Shown: piece after piece, positions 1-10,174 of the stretch | Position numbering within the stretch: the first letter of the stretch is position 1 | Layout: each line of letters opens with the position of its first letter | The notes under the pieces: model-generated | Database searches by the model: none | Told to the model about the DNA's origin: nothing | The model's input: only the letters and a program-made list of their open reading frames with translations | Made by a program: the position numbers and the translations under genes | Assembly: GCF_003986975.1 (NCBI RefSeq) | Contig: NZ_PIPO01000001.1 | Coordinates: forward strand, 496,001-560,000 | Source: Aliidiomarina soli | GTDB lineage: Bacteria > Pseudomonadota > Gammaproteobacteria > Enterobacterales > Alteromonadaceae | Length of the DNA stretch: 64,000 nucleotides | Direction of reading: 5' to 3'

Positions 1-12
1 ACAGAACAAGAA

Positions 13-558
13 TTGAAGATAGAAAATAGCCGCCAACTTACAAATGTGGCGCTTATCCTTCTTCCTGCAATAGGTGTAGTCGCAGGCCTAATTCTTCAAT
101 TTAGAAATGTTGGCAATGTGTTTTGGTGGCTCGCTGGAGCCTCGGCCATTTTATGCGCGATTAGTATATATCTAGGTGGTTTGGGCATCAGCCGACTGCG
201 AAGAGAGAAGCCAAGCCGTATTTCGCCATTTAATGGTCAAGCGGTATTGGTCACCATTGGGTTCCTTTTACTTTTATCTACGTATTTCTCAACTGGGGAC
301 GACAAACAGAACAATATACAAGAGCAACTGATTGTTATTTCCAGAGATATTGGGCTCCTACAGGGCAAGCTACAAACCTTCGAAGGGGAGGTTTCATCTA
401 TTAGCAGTGGACTAATGCAACTTGATTCTAAGTTTGCAAACTCAGAATTTATTGTCAAAGCCAGCCTAGATGACTTGGGTAGAGGTATGTGCGAGATTAC
501 AGAGCAAGTGGAGGAAATACAAACAGCATTAGATAAACTCACTCCTGCTGAGGAATGA
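13..558 (+). CDS. Membrane protein with C-terminal coiled coil, unknown function
   Basis: I do not recognise this family. The protein has three hydrophobic stretches (about residues 11-30, 35-59 and 74-92). A hydrophilic, heptad-like tail (about 97-180) follows, rich in Q, E, L and I, and probably forms a coiled coil. The reading frame is open to the left edge of the window, so the TTG at 13 may be the start or the gene may begin further upstream. The stop is followed within about 10 bases by an attC-like site, which makes it a plausible integron gene cassette. Base composition is AT-richer than the chromosome right of 4670. Function cannot be assigned. Confidence 0.55.
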   Translation: MKIENSRQLTNVALILLPAIGVVAGLILQFRNVGNVFWWLAGASAILCAISIYLGGLGISRLRREKPSRISPFNGQAVLVTIGFLLLLSTYFSTGDDKQNNIQEQLIVISRDIGLLQGKLQTFEGEVSSISSGLMQLDSKFANSEFIVKASLDDLGRGMCEITEQVEEIQTALDKLTPAEE

Positions 559-568
559 CTGAGAACAT

Positions 569-669
569 GTCTAACAATTGGATGCAACCGGACAAAGCTA
601 GGCTGTGGCCCTTACGCTGGCGCGAAGGCCGCGCGAGCTAGACACTTTCGCTGATCTGCGGCGTTATGT
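569..669. other. Integron attC-like recombination site
   Basis: The stretch begins GTCTAAC (569-575), which fits the R'' consensus RYYYAAC, and ends GCGTTATGT, whose GTT core sits where the R' crossover box should be (663-669). The left arm continues AATTGGATGCAACCGGAC, a form often seen in class 1 and environmental attC sites. The interior contains GC-rich, partly self-complementary sequence (GCTAG near 597 and again near 637; GGCGCG and CGCGC around 620-635). Length is about 100 bp, inside the usual attC range. Pairing between the outer arms is only moderate. It lies directly after a cassette-sized gene, where attC sites belong. No integrase is in the window. Confidence 0.55.
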
Positions 670-826
670 AGCAATAAGGAGAGAGTACATTGGCATAAAG
701 GTGATTCTAACGTACAGAAATGAAAACGTGACAGTAGAAGCTCGCCTATTTAAAGGTTGGAATCTTCCTGTTGAATTTGCGTTCCAGAAAACTACTAGGG
801 TTTATTCAGTCAGGCGTGGCTTTTAA
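605..826 (+). CDS. Small hypothetical ORF (up to 73 aa) after attC-like site
   Basis: The open frame runs from a GTG at 605, but its first 20 or so codons lie inside the attC-like site, so the true start is probably later. A ribosome-binding-like AAGGAGAG at about 676-683 is followed by an in-frame ATT at 689 and a GTG at 701, which would give a 42-46 residue basic protein containing TYRNENVTVEARLFKGWNLP. I do not recognise the product. It may be a short cassette gene or a fortuitous frame. There is no clear second attC site between it and the helicase. Confidence 0.3.
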   Translation: MALTLARRPRELDTFADLRRYVAIRREYIGIKVILTYRNENVTVEARLFKGWNLPVEFAFQKTTRVYSVRRGF

Positions 827-833
827 AGAGCCG

Positions 834-862
834 CTGCAACAAACTATGAGCGGGTGTTGCAG
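834..862. repeat. Perfect 8-bp inverted repeat between small ORF and helicase
   Basis: CTGCAACA (834-841) and TGTTGCAG (855-862) are perfect inverted copies separated by 13 bases. There is no T-run after either arm, so it is not a standard terminator. It lies about 75 bp upstream of the helicase start and could be a regulator site or part of an untypical recombination site. Confidence 0.4.
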
Positions 863-937
863 TTAATAGTTGAATTCGGGGCCTGTTAACTTTGTTAAGA
901 CTTGCCCAGACTCAGAAAATTAAAGTGGGAAACTAGT

Positions 938-3900
938 ATGAAAAGGACTCTTAAAAGCGTGTTGTCTGCATTATTTGGTAGAAAAAAGCAAATACATAAA
1001 GAAACCTACACCGTTATACATAATTCAGTACATAGAGATTCTAATTTAAAGGAACAGGCAACTCAAAAGTTAACACGCGACCAAGAAAATGAATTGAAAG
1101 ATAAATTGCGATGCGAGCAAATCCTGAATTACTGGTTAGACACAGAATTGTTTGATTTACCTGAATGTCCAATGGACTATAAAAAGCAAATAATCAGCGA
1201 GCCAGCTGATTATTTCTCTAACTCATGGGGGGTGGAAGCTCCCAAAAAAATTCATGCAGGTAAGCTACAATTTACCACAGATAGCCGCTTATTCGTAATG
1301 TTTCAGTGCCATATAGCTGGTTATATAGCTAAAAGCGAAGAAAAGCATCCAAATTACATAACGCCTAGAACTTATTTGGTCGGACAAGCTTTAATACCCA
1401 AATGGGACAACGAAAAAAAACAGGTAAAATGGACGCGTTCTGAAGATGATGAAGATCTTGTAATCAACTTGGCGACCATCAGGACACTATACCGACGTTG
1501 TAATAGTTCAATTCCCAATTCGATGAGTTTATCTGATTGGGTAGAAGCAAGGATGATAGAAATTGAGTCCATGCTTCATAAAGAACTAAGTCCAGAAGAT
1601 GAAGGTAACGGACTAGATACAGAAGAGCTTCAAAATAAGATAATACATCTTAATAGGAAAATTGCAGAACAGTTTTGGCCTGATGAAAGTGCAAGAAAAT
1701 TTATGCTGAATCAATGCCAGCCAATCGAAAGTCGATTTGCTGATAAATTGGATCAACCTAGTGAATTAAAAAGTGGGGCGGTTACATTCCGTTGGCGCTA
1801 TTGCTACTATCCGGAAGGCAGTGAAAATCAACAGCTAGGTCCATTTTTTGTTGATGATCTTGAGCGAGCTATATCTTCAGTAGGGAAGAAAGGTGTTGGT
1901 GGTCTATCTAGACCATTGCAAGACTATCTGCTCGGTAGGAAAAAACAAATTGAAATAGGCAATGCTGTCAATCAAGGTGATTTGTTTTTGTCACTGACTA
2001 ATAAGCTTATTAAAGGTCGCTGGCCAGATAACCCTGATTTTGGTCTCAGTTTACTTCAATGCGTTGCTGTTAATGTATCTACAGATCTTTCAGAGAACCC
2101 AATTGTGGCTGTAAATGGCCCACCCGGAACAGGGAAAACCACATTACTGAAAGACGTAATCGCAGATAGGTTTGTTACTCGCACTATAAAACTTAGTGAA
2201 CTTTGCGAAAAAGAGGAGTGGCTTTCTAGTAGCGAAAGTATTTCTTCAATTATGCAATATAGTATGGTTGTTGCATCAAGCAACAACAAAGCGGTTGAGA
2301 ATATATCAAAAGAGATCCCAGCATTAAGTAAGTTGCCGGAACAGTATAGTGACGTAGTAAAGCACTTTCAAAGCATCGCTCCGGAAGAAGATTGGGGACT
2401 GTTTTGTGCGGTATTAGGAAATTCTAGCAATCGTCGCTCTTTCAAAGAGCAATTGTCTAAACTGAAGGATCATTTTAGGAATATTAAAGATTATTTGCAC
2501 CTTCAGTTTCTCGTTAACTTACTAAAGAAAAAAGGACCTGAAAAAGCTGATGAGGTTTTTAAGAAATTCGTTACAGATTGGAAAGACAACAAGAGAATAT
2601 CAATAGTAATTGAAGACTTACAAGAGTGTCATGCAAATAAAAAGTACCAAGAGTTTTTTAAACCCTTTGCTTCAGCTTTGCAAAGAGTCCAAAACAACGA
2701 ACTAACTGTTGAACAATTCTCTGCGAGTTGGAAAGGTCTGGATGAGGAGCAATGGGAGTTATCGATAGAAGCATTGGAAGCTTTTAAAAAACAATGGTTC
2801 GGGAAAAAGCTTTACAGTAAGCACTTGACGAGAAATTTAGATGTTGCTCAAAGAAAATTTAATGAAAAGCTAGCTAGAGTTTCAAAAGTACTAACGAAAG
2901 ATAACCAAGAATTTAAATTGGATAAAAAGAAACATCTAGTAGGTACACAGTATTATTCAACAATTGGTGAAGAATCAGAAAACGATGCGGAAAAACGCCT
3001 TCAATTATCATCTCCCTTCAGTAGCTCCGAACTCAATGACTGTAGAAGCCAGTTATTTATAGCGGCATTAGCTTTAAATGAAGCGATACTAGAGTGTGCT
3101 GCAAGTCAACTCTCTAAGCATTGGGAGAAACTCGATGGGCTAATTGATGGGTACCTTGAAACAAATGAGAGCACTCCTGAGCATCAGCAACTTTGGTCCA
3201 TTTTGTTTTTGTTTTTCCCAGTGGTCAGCACGTCTTTATCATCGGTTGAAAATCAATTTAAGCTAATGCAAAAAAAGGAAGGATTCGGGTTGGTAATGTT
3301 TGATGAGTCCGGTCAGGCCGTAAACTATCACGTTACTGGTATGTTACAAAGAAGTCGGCAGGCAATTTTCGTCGGAGATCCCATACAATTGGAACCGGTT
3401 GTAACTATGCCTCCGTCAATTGATTTAGCAATTGCTGAAGATTTTTTTCCTATATCAAAAAAAGATGGTAATCACTGCTGGGGGGACGATTATTTAATCA
3501 GTTCTAATTCTGCCCAATCAATTGCTGATAAAGCTGGAAAATATATAGCAAAAATTGGGGAGCGAAAAGTTGGGATTCCACTGCTTGTACATCGACGCTG
3601 TACGGAACCAATGTTTTCGATATCAAATAGAATTGCTTATGATGATAAAATGGTTTTGGCTAGCAAGCCATTTGGCTGGAAAGCGATTCAAAGTGGTTGG
3701 ATCAACGTTGATGAAGATGCAGAAGAGATGAAAAAAACTGGGTATGCAAATTCACTTGAGGCGTGTACTGCTCTAGATTTAGTGAAATTTTTAGTAGAAG
3801 AGCATCCTGATATGGTTCAAGGTGGAGTATATATTATTACACCGTTTTCGATTATGAGACGGGAGCTGAAACATCAGTGGAAAGAGGTTTGTAAAGACTC

Positions 3901-4321
3901 TTCTAATCATAGTTGGATGCAAAGTGCTTTCGGCACCGATAAAGCTGGATTAGATGTAGAGTCTTTCTCTGAACATAATATTGGGACCGTTCATTCGTTT
4001 CAAGGTAAAGAGGCATCCACTGTTATTCTATGCACATCAGCCTCCAATATTCGTAAAAAACAAGGAGGTATCACGTGGGTAAATAGTAAGCCAAACTTAT
4101 TAAACGTTGCCGTCACACGTGCTCAACATCATCTATTTGTTATTGGTAATCAAAAGGATTGGTCCGAAGGCACATTATCGGCTGTTCTACAAAACGGTGA
4201 GATGCAATGCTATGCAAACTTAGAAGACTTTAAGAGGCAAGACGCCCGTTTAATTGATGATTATTTAACAGAGGTTAGAGTTGTAGAAAAAGCTAGCTCT
4301 ATTAACTTTGACTTTGGCTAA
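938..4321 (+). CDS. Large superfamily 1 (UPF1/DNA2-like) helicase, AAA_11/AAA_12 type
   Basis: ATP-dependent SF1 nucleic-acid helicase of about 1127 residues. Numbered from the ATG at 938, the motifs are: Walker A GPPGTGKT at 394-401; a motif Ia-like VVASSNNKAVENI shortly after; Walker B/DEAD-equivalent FDESGQA around 788-794; VGDPIQLEPV (motif III-like) near 812; SFQGKEAS near 1020; and VAVTRAQHHL (motif VI) near 1057. About 300 mostly helical residues separate motif Ia from Walker B, and about 390 N-terminal residues match nothing I recognise. A TTG at 902 in the same frame is possible, but the ATG has a GGGA ribosome site at good distance. No nuclease, PLD or kinase domain is visible. Low GC and the neighbouring attC-like site and IS remnant suggest transfer. 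A role in defence or mobile-element maintenance is possible but inferred. Confidence 0.8.
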   Translation: MKRTLKSVLSALFGRKKQIHKETYTVIHNSVHRDSNLKEQATQKLTRDQENELKDKLRCEQILNYWLDTELFDLPECPMDYKKQIISEPADYFSNSWGVEAPKKIHAGKLQFTTDSRLFVMFQCHIAGYIAKSEEKHPNYITPRTYLVGQALIPKWDNEKKQVKWTRSEDDEDLVINLATIRTLYRRCNSSIPNSMSLSDWVEARMIEIESMLHKELSPEDEGNGLDTEELQNKIIHLNRKIAEQFWPDESARKFMLNQCQPIESRFADKLDQPSELKSGAVTFRWRYCYYPEGSENQQLGPFFVDDLERAISSVGKKGVGGLSRPLQDYLLGRKKQIEIGNAVNQGDLFLSLTNKLIKGRWPDNPDFGLSLLQCVAVNVSTDLSENPIVAVNGPPGTGKTTLLKDVIADRFVTRTIKLSELCEKEEWLSSSESISSIMQYSMVVASSNNKAVENISKEIPALSKLPEQYSDVVKHFQSIAPEEDWGLFCAVLGNSSNRRSFKEQLSKLKDHFRNIKDYLHLQFLVNLLKKKGPEKADEVFKKFVTDWKDNKRISIVIEDLQECHANKKYQEFFKPFASALQRVQNNELTVEQFSASWKGLDEEQWELSIEALEAFKKQWFGKKLYSKHLTRNLDVAQRKFNEKLARVSKVLTKDNQEFKLDKKKHLVGTQYYSTIGEESENDAEKRLQLSSPFSSSELNDCRSQLFIAALALNEAILECAASQLSKHWEKLDGLIDGYLETNESTPEHQQLWSILFLFFPVVSTSLSSVENQFKLMQKKEGFGLVMFDESGQAVNYHVTGMLQRSRQAIFVGDPIQLEPVVTMPPSIDLAIAEDFFPISKKDGNHCWGDDYLISSNSAQSIADKAGKYIAKIGERKVGIPLLVHRRCTEPMFSISNRIAYDDKMVLASKPFGWKAIQSGWINVDEDAEEMKKTGYANSLEACTALDLVKFLVEEHPDMVQGGVYIITPFSIMRRELKHQWKEVCKDSSNHSWMQSAFGTDKAGLDVESFSEHNIGTVHSFQGKEASTVILCTSASNIRKKQGGITWVNSKPNLLNVAVTRAQHHLFVIGNQKDWSEGTLSAVLQNGEMQCYANLEDFKRQDARLIDDYLTEVRVVEKASSINFDFG

Positions 4322-4424
4322 CTAACGCTAGAAAGCATACGTGTGCGGATTTACCTTAACCAAGTTGTAACAAATGGTATTGGCTATTCCCTGAGAATAG
4401 AACCATGACATCGATGATACTTTC

Positions 4425-4655
4425 ATGAAAATGCGTCAAGTGGAGATCTCAAAACTTAAAAAACGTTACAGCGAAGAAGAAATCATTAAGGCCATCAAAG
4501 AGCATTGGGCCGGACCCAAGGTCTAATACATTTGACGTCGCCTGGGCATATCATCAAACCGGACGATCTATCATTGGCGTAATAGTAAATACGTCGGTCT
4601 GAAAGTTAACAGAGCGAAGCGCTCGCGCGAGCTTGAAGTTGAGCATCAATCCGAT
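4425..4655 (+). pseudogene. IS3-family orfA transposase remnant
   Basis: One frame read from the ATG at 4425 gives KLKKRYSEEEIIKAIKEHWAG, which I recognise as the N-terminal helix-turn-helix start of IS3-family OrfA proteins. After in-frame stops at 4524 and 4533 the same frame continues RRLGISS, then IYHWRNSKYVGLKVNRAKR and SRELEVEHQ. These match the later OrfA signature (GIS..TFYxWR.KYGG...AKRLRELEEEN). Two nonsense codons, a few missing residues and the absence of orfB show a dead fragment. Similarity ends about 15 bp before the 3' end of rlmI, so the fragment marks the right edge of the accessory segment. It fills the otherwise gene-free gap 4322-4669. The rest of that gap shows only a short inverted repeat (CTATTC/GAATAG near 4385-4401). 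Confidence 0.75.
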
Positions 4656-4669
4656 GCTCCGTTTCAATG

Positions 4670-9625: not shown

Positions 9626-9644
9626 GTCAGACTCCGCCTGACCT
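9624..9644. terminator. Palindrome at dcd stop; one of two repeated copies flanking the TA pair
   Basis: AGGTCAG (9624-9630) and CTGACCT (9638-9644) form a perfect 7-bp stem with a 7-base loop, overlapping the dcd stop and lying between convergent genes. There is no long T-run, so terminator function is uncertain. A close copy lies at 10303-10322 on the far side of the toxin-antitoxin pair. Confidence 0.45.
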
Positions 9645-9953
9645 TTGGGGTTTTCTGGCAATCCAATAAAACGGCTTACGGCGTGTGTGCGTAATGGCTA
9701 GTATTTCTATGTTATTTGGTGTGATTCGGTAGATAACTGAGGTAGGAAATATGCTCAAACTTGCCTTACGAATATCGGGCTTTAATATAATGGCATTTGA
9801 TTTTGGGAAGGTGGATATTCGCTGACCAACCGAGTCAAAAGCATTAAGAAATTTTGCTCCTAAACCTCGAACTTGAGAATCATAATATCTAATGCATTTA
9901 TAAAGCTCAGCTTCAGCATCAGGGTGGAGCTCAACATTGAGTTGAACTCTCAC
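9627..9953 (-). CDS. RelE/ParE-family toxin
   Basis: Likely toxin of a type II toxin-antitoxin pair; 108 residues. The ParE/RelE fold is suggested by the opening VELHPDAEAELYKCIRYYD, the helix GAKFLNAFDSVGQRI, and the strand pattern KASLSIFPTSVIYRI ... IEILAITHTRRKPFYW. ParE toxins usually act on gyrase and RelE toxins cut mRNA; which applies here cannot be read from the sequence. The start overlaps the antitoxin stop by four bases (ATGA). The C-terminal end lies against the dcd stop in convergent orientation. The pair is AT-richer than dcd, which fits acquisition. Confidence 0.75.
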   Translation of the reverse strand: MRVQLNVELHPDAEAELYKCIRYYDSQVRGLGAKFLNAFDSVGQRISTFPKSNAIILKPDIRKASLSIFPTSVIYRITPNNIEILAITHTRRKPFYWIARKPQRSGGV

Positions 9954-10174
9954 CGAATCATGGTCCGTGCTTTTTCCATAACACTCGAGTACGCCACAGT
10001 TTCAACCTCACCTGAATCAATCTGGTGAGCGCGAGATTGGGCTGTGGCCAATACGTCAGACCAAGCCTCATTTTGCTGTGAAGGAGTCAGGCTTGCGATT
10101 AAATGCCGCACTAACTGAGCTCGCTCCTCAGCGCTAAGCTGCAAAGCTTCTTTCTCTATTTGCTTAAGCTTCAT
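9950..10174 (-). CDS. Addiction-module antitoxin (TIGR02574-like)
   Basis: A 74-residue protein that resembles the addiction module component family which pairs with ParE-type toxins. Key features are the helical opening KQIEKEALQLSAEERAQLVRHLIASL and a downstream toxin-wrapping tail. It precedes and overlaps the toxin gene by four bases, the usual antitoxin-first order. No DNA-binding motif is obvious. The region upstream (10175-10302) has no gene on this strand and may hold its promoter. Confidence 0.72.
   Translation of the reverse strand: MKLKQIEKEALQLSAEERAQLVRHLIASLTPSQQNEAWSDVLATAQSRAHQIDSGEVETVAYSSVMEKARTMIR

Follow-up and report, generated by a model that had tools for sequence, protein, structure and literature searches.

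Does helicase-based immunity in bacteria always come with a nuclease? In the accessible parts of the literature, Mokosh, Hna and Hachiman are described as a helicase paired with a nuclease. Mokosh type II is defined there by a helicase and a C-terminal PLD nuclease in one protein (PMC11672841), and Hna is a superfamily 2 (SF2) helicase with a PD-(D/E)XK nuclease (PMC13381803). CoCoNuT loci encode CnuH, a UPF1-like defence helicase in which a large helical insertion follows Walker A and which, as far as the available text tells, works with CnuE effectors and McrB/McrC homologues (PMC11090510). Here we analyse a gene near the left end of a 64,000-nucleotide stretch of the Aliidiomarina soli genome (the window). 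It encodes a UPF1-like superfamily 1 (SF1) helicase, which an original prediction, made from the letters of this DNA, had called an orphan of mobile or defence character. Like Mokosh type II, it is a single large protein with a UPF1/COG1112-type helicase core; unlike Mokosh type II, its family has no C-terminal PLD, carries an N-terminal ILxxWxxxE signature and falls on the opposite side of a tree of the core. Because it is found repeatedly among anti-virus genes and has no recognisable cutting enzyme, we probably have here a relative of a known anti-phage system that has not been described before.

Relationship to Mokosh type II

The gene is uninterrupted and encodes 1127 residues from the ATG at 938 (the frame is open from 902). 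This start is supported by the homologues, which have a Met aligned with it, together with an LKxxxxxLFxRQ-like pattern. No second gene of this kind was matched in the host genome, where this one lies at G000:C1:496938-500318. In Pfam, AAA_11 (residues 382-822), AAA_12 (918-1073) and Viral_helicase1 (1011-1068; also a helicase model) are above cut-off. The remaining matches are below it, and no nuclease or kinase domain is matched in the protein, as the original prediction had said. It had also claimed intact core motifs, and motifs I, Ia, II, III, V and VI could all be mapped, as in UPF1/DNA2-like SF1B helicases. Under the motif names that we take to apply, they are GLSLLQ at residue 369 (Q side), GPPGTGKT at 394 (I), SSNNKAVEN at 447 (Ia), DESGQ at 789 (II), GDPIQLEP at 813 (III), GTVHSFQGKEA at 1016 (V) and NVAVTRA at 1056 (VI).

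The best PADLOC model is MkoC of Mokosh type II, with 241 bits (E 6.3e-72) between residues 365-1073 and positions 244-945 of the 1136 in the model. Nine members of the family that were scanned score 220-265 bits within model positions 191-969. The COG1112-type RNA-helicase core of Mokosh type II is thus present, and the idea that the protein is unlike anything known has to be given up: its core is MkoC-type, and UPF1-like by structure (Z 18-20). Is it then a Mokosh type II protein? The window protein has neither a PLD match nor the motif HxK(x)4D. At the C-terminal place where MkoC has its nuclease, PLDc_2 is found in five more distant relatives (L052, L053, L082, L085 and L087). HxK(x)4D occurs in all five of these and in none of 34 sequences of the window's kind, namely 11 close and 23 mid relatives. 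A FastTree tree of 347 core columns and 43 sequences, midpoint-rooted and with the PLD-bearing sequences numbering only five, is split by a branch of length 0.97 with SH-like support of 1.00. The five PLD-bearing proteins stand on one side together with L049, L050, L051, L084 and L086, and the 11 close and 22 mid relatives on the other. The input was 44 relatives, of which L048 was dropped for its gaps and so is the one mid relative not placed; L076, L088 and the short partial matches from the genome searches were not included. The N-terminal signature, in a form slightly looser than [IV]LxxWxxxE and written after the alignment had been inspected, is found in 33 of the 34 and in none of the 10 others, that is the five PLD-bearing proteins and the five that group with them; the exception, L081, has no N-terminus. 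The tail is short as well. In 30 of the 34 there are 34-77 residues after motif VI, with 257 in L063 and 305 in L079; the motif VI pattern was not found in L048 and L065. Because of the tree split, the missing HxK(x)4D, the signature and the short tail, the window helicase is classed from its sequence as a member of a PLD-less sister family, and not as Mokosh II. Among the matches listed in the open PMC literature, with subscription papers and bioRxiv outside this scope, the accessible texts hold no description of such a family (including PMC10952713, PMC11090510, PMC10013915, PMC11672841 and PMC13381803).

In one of the PLD-bearing relatives, a PP2C-like phosphatase, a 720-residue kinase-like protein and the helicase stand in a row near an integrase (L082:2144-8673; names other than PLD given by eye).

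Distribution of the family

How far does the gene spread? A full-length relative with 52% identity lies on a plasmid of Photobacterium toruni (L040; tblastn), and another with 47% in a congener (genome search). When a species-level genome collection was queried with an alignment of three sequences, ten loci were obtained. Nine hold full-length orthologues with 45-58% identity, from Paenalcaligenes, Ferrimonas, Vibrio, Psychrobacter, Photobacterium indicum, Pseudoalteromonas, Aliidiomarina, a Marinospirillum metagenome-assembled genome (MAG) and a gammaproteobacterial MAG. The tenth is a decayed copy (residues 5-157; L071:9989-10510) near a type I restriction-modification (RM) locus. A single-protein query of the same collection gave 18 stretches matching a pattern and no relatives. 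Identities of 45-58% between genera exclude chance. In all, the close orthologues come from seven named genera, two MAGs and one plasmid. The gene is nevertheless rare and scattered, since close full-length copies were found in two of the 96 genomes of the relatives search, host included, and, of 369 genomes of the class, in the host alone (with at most two candidates scored per genome).

A wider group, with 23-27% identity over the alignment, is found on plasmids of Proteobacteria and Bacillota and on viral contigs. Phage records gave no close relative and five distant matches. No NCBIfam model is above cut-off (best TIGR00376, 48.7 bits vs 348.9), and the best of PHROGs is phrog_25411, of unknown function (E 1.1e-14). 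L072 and L073 are one viral-contig stretch matching L067 and were left out of the counts. On another viral contig, a 1699-residue open reading frame (ORF) codes for a UPF1-like SF1 helicase that also matches Toprim and, weakly, Topoisom_bac (L086:4582-9681), a possible helicase-topoisomerase fusion judging from these matches.

Genomic context

The probable defence role is judged from what stands beside the gene. In 12 loci (the window, L040 and L062-L071), clear defence genes were found in the fetched stretch of seven, or of eight if AbiEii is counted, which lies in the same island as the window helicase, about 12 kb upstream. Retron I-A, SspABCD, Cas3-type and Csm6-type CRISPR, type I RM, GmrSD and AbiE all adjoin homologues. 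On the P. toruni plasmid they are Csm6, Cas1 and Cas2 by annotation; in Ferrimonas (L063) Cas3, and also a Fic gene that SoFic matches in part; in L064 retron I-A with its ATPase and HNH; in L065 SspA, B, C and D. L067 has GmrSD/DUF262 proteins and, by eye, type I RM genes (REase_I and MTase_I models matched in the neighbour set); L070 has HsdS, AbiEi, AbiEii, HsdR and a type IV restriction-type protein (L070:1348-4527, mREase_IV); and L071 has HsdR. These are not mainly conserved chromosomal contexts, and the mobile or defence character of the gene is supported. Around Csm6, Cas1 and Cas2, the plasmid also holds a GTPase and dynamin-like gene cluster by annotation (L040:804-11693).

Would any stretch of these contigs give such neighbours? 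Eight control stretches of 20 kb, with 115 proteins of at least 150 residues, were cut at set positions from the contigs that carry eight of the loci. No retron, Ssp, RM, GmrSD, AbiE, Cas1 or Cas3 model was matched in them at 1e-20. Twelve PADLOC models were matched at that threshold: mad3 (four members) and, with one member each, Cas12f and Cas12u models, Csx1, ShosA and PsyrA. The Csx1 match is G462:C22:36446-37504, inside control L100. Its model, PDLC01039, matches 11 places in the Paenalcaligenes genome, including a TnpB-like fragment (L062:64-384, G461:C3); it may pick up transposon proteins, and for this reason the Csx1 and Cas12 matches in the controls are read as TnpB-type transposon proteins. 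On the side of the helicase, 90 neighbours from nine homologue loci (not L040, L066 or L071) matched 222 PADLOC models, a count inflated by redundant models.

There is a further question, whether the helicase has a constant partner. Among 583 ORFs of at least 35 residues within 5 kb of the helicase in 11 loci, no protein is shared between loci at 1e-4, and the gene is an orphan in this sense, as predicted. Here it differs from CnuH, with which it is compared by description in the available text and not by sequence: the window helicase has no conserved partner, and a linked CnuE plus McrB/C would have been such a partner, though these were not searched by name.

The gene lies beside rlmI, in a spot that is a variable defence hotspot. 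The AT-rich segment noted at first sight is real, with 38-41% G+C across window 1-4000 vs 48-56% in the remaining 2-kb blocks. The congener G010, whose DNA is 93-95% identical where it aligns, is collinear with the host between window 9604 and 4670 (rlmI), and again from a point about 21.8 kb to the left of the window. In place of the intervening 26 kb, which bear the helicase, it has some 5.2 kb of largely unrelated DNA including a TIR-domain protein. At the same spot, a second congener (G011) has a STAND NTPase, PDC-S06 and genes of RADAR type that RdrA/RdrB match in part, at 57-89 bits, and G005 has AIPR/AbiU and PD-Lambda-1; G008 gave no match past rlmI. In one congener hotspot (L123:5710-18070), the STAND NTPase that stands with the RdrA/RdrB-like genes and the PDC-S06 gene has 1256 residues and no PADLOC match.

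Predicted structure

An AlphaFold2 model from 17 sequences (predicted local distance difference test, pLDDT, 79.2; predicted template modelling score, pTM, 0.73) was compared with the PDB. The matches are IGHMBP2 (4b3g; Z 19.9, root-mean-square deviation (rmsd) 5.8, 447 residues aligned), UPF1 (2xzp; Z 19.0, rmsd 6.2, 452 aligned), SETX (8ftm; Z 18.8, rmsd 6.0, 470 aligned) and DNA2 (5eax; Z 18.4, rmsd 8.7, 449 aligned). With these eukaryotic SF1B helicases, a kind that translocates 5' to 3', the protein would share a RecA1-RecA2 core and a probable stalk; it differs by its bacterial defence context and by a larger alpha/beta domain, which seems to replace domain 1B. In a library of viral structures, the named ones among the 50 matches listed are helicases, viral replicases and polyproteins. 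The predicted fold is UPF1/IGHMBP2-like with a helical insertion of about 240 residues, presumably some five times larger than domain 1C of UPF1. In the model, the helicase thereby agrees with CnuH in its helical insertion after Walker A.

The original prediction had held that about 390 N-terminal residues match nothing, which proves partly right. Whole-model alignments begin at residue ~55, against UPF1 295, and from this range and the secondary structure, helices 47-72 and 302-322 would correspond to the UPF1 stalk. Residues 80-295 between them would replace domain 1B, and it is for this domain that the claim stands. Modelled alone (1-387; pLDDT 68.7), the N-terminal part gave a best Z of 4.5 in the fold search, with no convincing match for the domain between the stalk-like helices. 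CoCoNuT types II and III-A carry an N-terminal SmpB-like OB fold and an RTL domain, and the window N-domain has only matches with Z < 5.

Proposed mechanism

What might such a protein do? A defence role is likely in view of the context. That the gene is a single-gene system against phages or mobile elements, with an ATP-driven UPF1-type SF1B translocase as the sole recognisable machinery, has about an even chance of being right. It is best read as an immune helicase that would act on its own, a variant of the UPF1-like defence helicases represented by MkoC and CnuH, and its motor would be its own effector. The helicase would load on single-stranded phage RNA, or on single-stranded DNA or R-loop intermediates. 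Sensing or clamping would fall to the helical arm and to the N-terminal domain carried on the stalk, and ATP-driven translocation would strip or block phage transcripts or replication intermediates. Any destruction of nucleic acid would then be the work of host nucleases. RNA is slightly preferred as the target because of the relationship to UPF1, IGHMBP2 and SETX; DNA is possible too, as DNA2 scores nearly as well against the model.

A more specific proposal, put forward tentatively, is that the relatives with ILxxWxxxE form a distinct undescribed 'W-E' family, spread through Proteobacteria and Bacillota by way of plasmids, prophages and hotspots of defence genes, whose nuclease-free motor would itself strip or block phage RNA or replication intermediates. 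If this is true, a nuclease-less motor family would separate the role of the motor from that of the nuclease. Eukaryotes have UPF1-type antiviral surveillance, and the family would be a bacterial parallel to it. There is also a warning for annotation, in that a match to the MkoC core alone may be reported as Mokosh II without the defining nuclease.

Several points weigh on the other side. The absence of an effector is judged from Pfam, motif patterns and one model, and one could be concealed in the N-domain or the helical insertion. An extra part may be present in some members, since L063 and L079 carry long C-terminal extensions; that of the Ferrimonas orthologue (L063:9920-13756) has extra repeats, Sel1-like by eye, and the 305 residues of L079 have no Pfam match. 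Hna, which is likewise a single-protein defence of the helicase type, does carry a nuclease according to the available text, being SF2 with PD-(D/E)XK. Finally, four of the 12 loci have no clear defence neighbour: for L062 there is a single weak candidate (PDC-M26A, 107 bits), the 4.8-kb contig of L066 does not reach far enough for a judgement, L068 (the Pseudoalteromonas copy) has a tRNA-Ser and an integrase N-terminus, a remnant, followed by the helicase, which counts in favour of a mobile context, and L069 has none.

Alternative explanations

Could the missing enzyme be hidden in the protein? The 80-295 domain or the 496-737 insertion might be an RNase, a nuclease, or an NTP- or protein-modifying enzyme switched on by the helicase. 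We consider this unlikely, though it fares best among the alternatives. C77, C124, H125, C188 and C289, which lie within the 80-295 domain or immediately ahead of it, do not vary among the 11 close members, but they are not among the positions conserved in the wider group. The latter, at least 85% identical in 30 sequences (L047, L048, L079 and L081 omitted), are M1, W66, E70, W97, F303, D307, L308, L327 and Y330 before residue 362, and F477, W486, G487, L493, G494, N498, R499, F502, R703, F707 and A710 in 466-749. They are mainly hydrophobic, aromatic or glycine, plus E70, D307, N498, R499 and R703, and to our knowledge they form no recognised nuclease signature or catalytic set. A HEPN domain was also considered and rejected, with no R-x4-6-H pair seen by eye near the near-invariant R703. 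The N-domain has weak fold echoes of YopQ (Z 4.5, rmsd 3.5, 84 aligned), Cif (Z 3.1, rmsd 4.5, 104 aligned) and SpvD (Z 2.9, rmsd 3.8, 89 aligned). All are below Z 5, which the fold-search tool treats as possibly a mere common arrangement, and a papain-like domain, or one resembling type III secretion effectors, was rejected on this ground.

Another explanation is that the helicase serves mobile elements, in plasmid or prophage maintenance, replication or transfer, and sits in islands merely as cargo. It would fit the 692 plasmid records that match at E 1e-5 or better (any UPF1-like relative), the Klebsiella copy adjoining conjugation genes and the viral-contig copies adjoining recombinase or integrase genes (named by eye). 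However, there is no constant link to replication or transfer genes in the loci read, and the close members lie mostly on chromosomal contigs beside defence systems. This explanation is improbable in our judgement.

Then might the protein still be Mokosh type II, using a PLD nuclease in trans or having decayed? The long match to MkoC and the five PLDc_2-bearing relatives speak for it, and PLDc_2 proteins occur somewhere in 10 of 11 helicase genomes or records, but likewise in 12 of 14 control genomes. In none of these 11 is there a PLDc_2 match closer than 40 kb to the helicase, which together with the lack of a kinase match in the protein also leaves Mokosh type I, with its serine-threonine kinase and separate PLD gene, without a counterpart here. 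The P. toruni plasmid has no PLDc_2 at all. Moreover, HxK(x)4D is missing in 34 of 34, 33 of which branch apart from the PLD group, no neighbour gene is common to the loci, and full-length genes are open and conserved across genera despite the one remnant (L071). Use of a PLD in trans, or decay, is thus very improbable. A horizontally acquired helicase with an ordinary role in repair or RNA processing, for which the UPF1/IGHMBP2/DNA2-type core could be cited, is the least credible of all, given its rarity in the genomes searched and its place in a variable hotspot.

Features of the window

The features are collected in Table 1.

Table 1. Positions of the helicase gene, its parts and nearby elements in the window
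Feature	Position	Strand	Basis
Coding sequence, UPF1-like SF1 helicase, classed in the PLD-less sister family of MkoC	938..4321	+	ORF, Pfam, PADLOC, orthologues, core tree
Residues 47-72, first stalk-like helix with family signature ILNYWLDTE	1076..1153	+	W66, E70 identical in 30/30 sequences
Residues 80-295, alpha/beta domain, putative counterpart of UPF1 domain 1B	1175..1822	+	Best fold match VIA Z 4.5, unconvincing
Residues 302-322, second stalk-like helix	1841..1903	+	Conserved F303, D307, L308
Residues 360-495, RecA1 first part, motifs Q, I, Ia	2015..2422	+	Walker A 394-402 = 2117-2143
Residues 496-737, predicted all-helical insertion between motifs Ia and II, UPF1 domain 1C position	2423..3148	+	Model
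Residues 750-830, RecA1 second part, motifs II (3302-3316) and III	3185..3427	+	Model, motif positions
Residues 855-1080, RecA2, motifs IV-VI	3500..4177	+	Pfam, model, motif positions
Residues 1081-1127, short C-terminal tail at site of MkoC PLD nuclease	4178..4318	+	54 residues beyond AAA_12
Right-hand part of ~26-kb variable island beside rlmI	1..4669	.	Reaches ~21.8 kb left of the first base of the window
33-residue remnant like start of IS3-type OrfA	4425..4526	+	By eye

The original prediction had placed the gene between an attC-like site and an insertion sequence fragment. The first of these falls: the stretch at 570..672 does not fold into a long hairpin (z +0.76; 153 of 200 shuffles fold equally well or better). 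No integron integrase is above the TIGR02249 cut-off in the host genome (best 80.7 bits vs 265), and with both failing, an origin as an integron gene cassette was rejected. The second survives as the short remnant in Table 1, which by eye resembles the start of an OrfA that we take to be of the IS3 family. A repeat of about 90-150 bp, carrying a TTTCCC-AA-GGGAAA hairpin, is dispersed over seven places in the host genome (e.g. L003:18082-18230) and was for this reason rejected as an att site; copies are also found at the same island edge in congeners. Beyond the island, a ParE-type toxin with an Unstab_antitox partner lies at window 9627-10174 on the minus strand.

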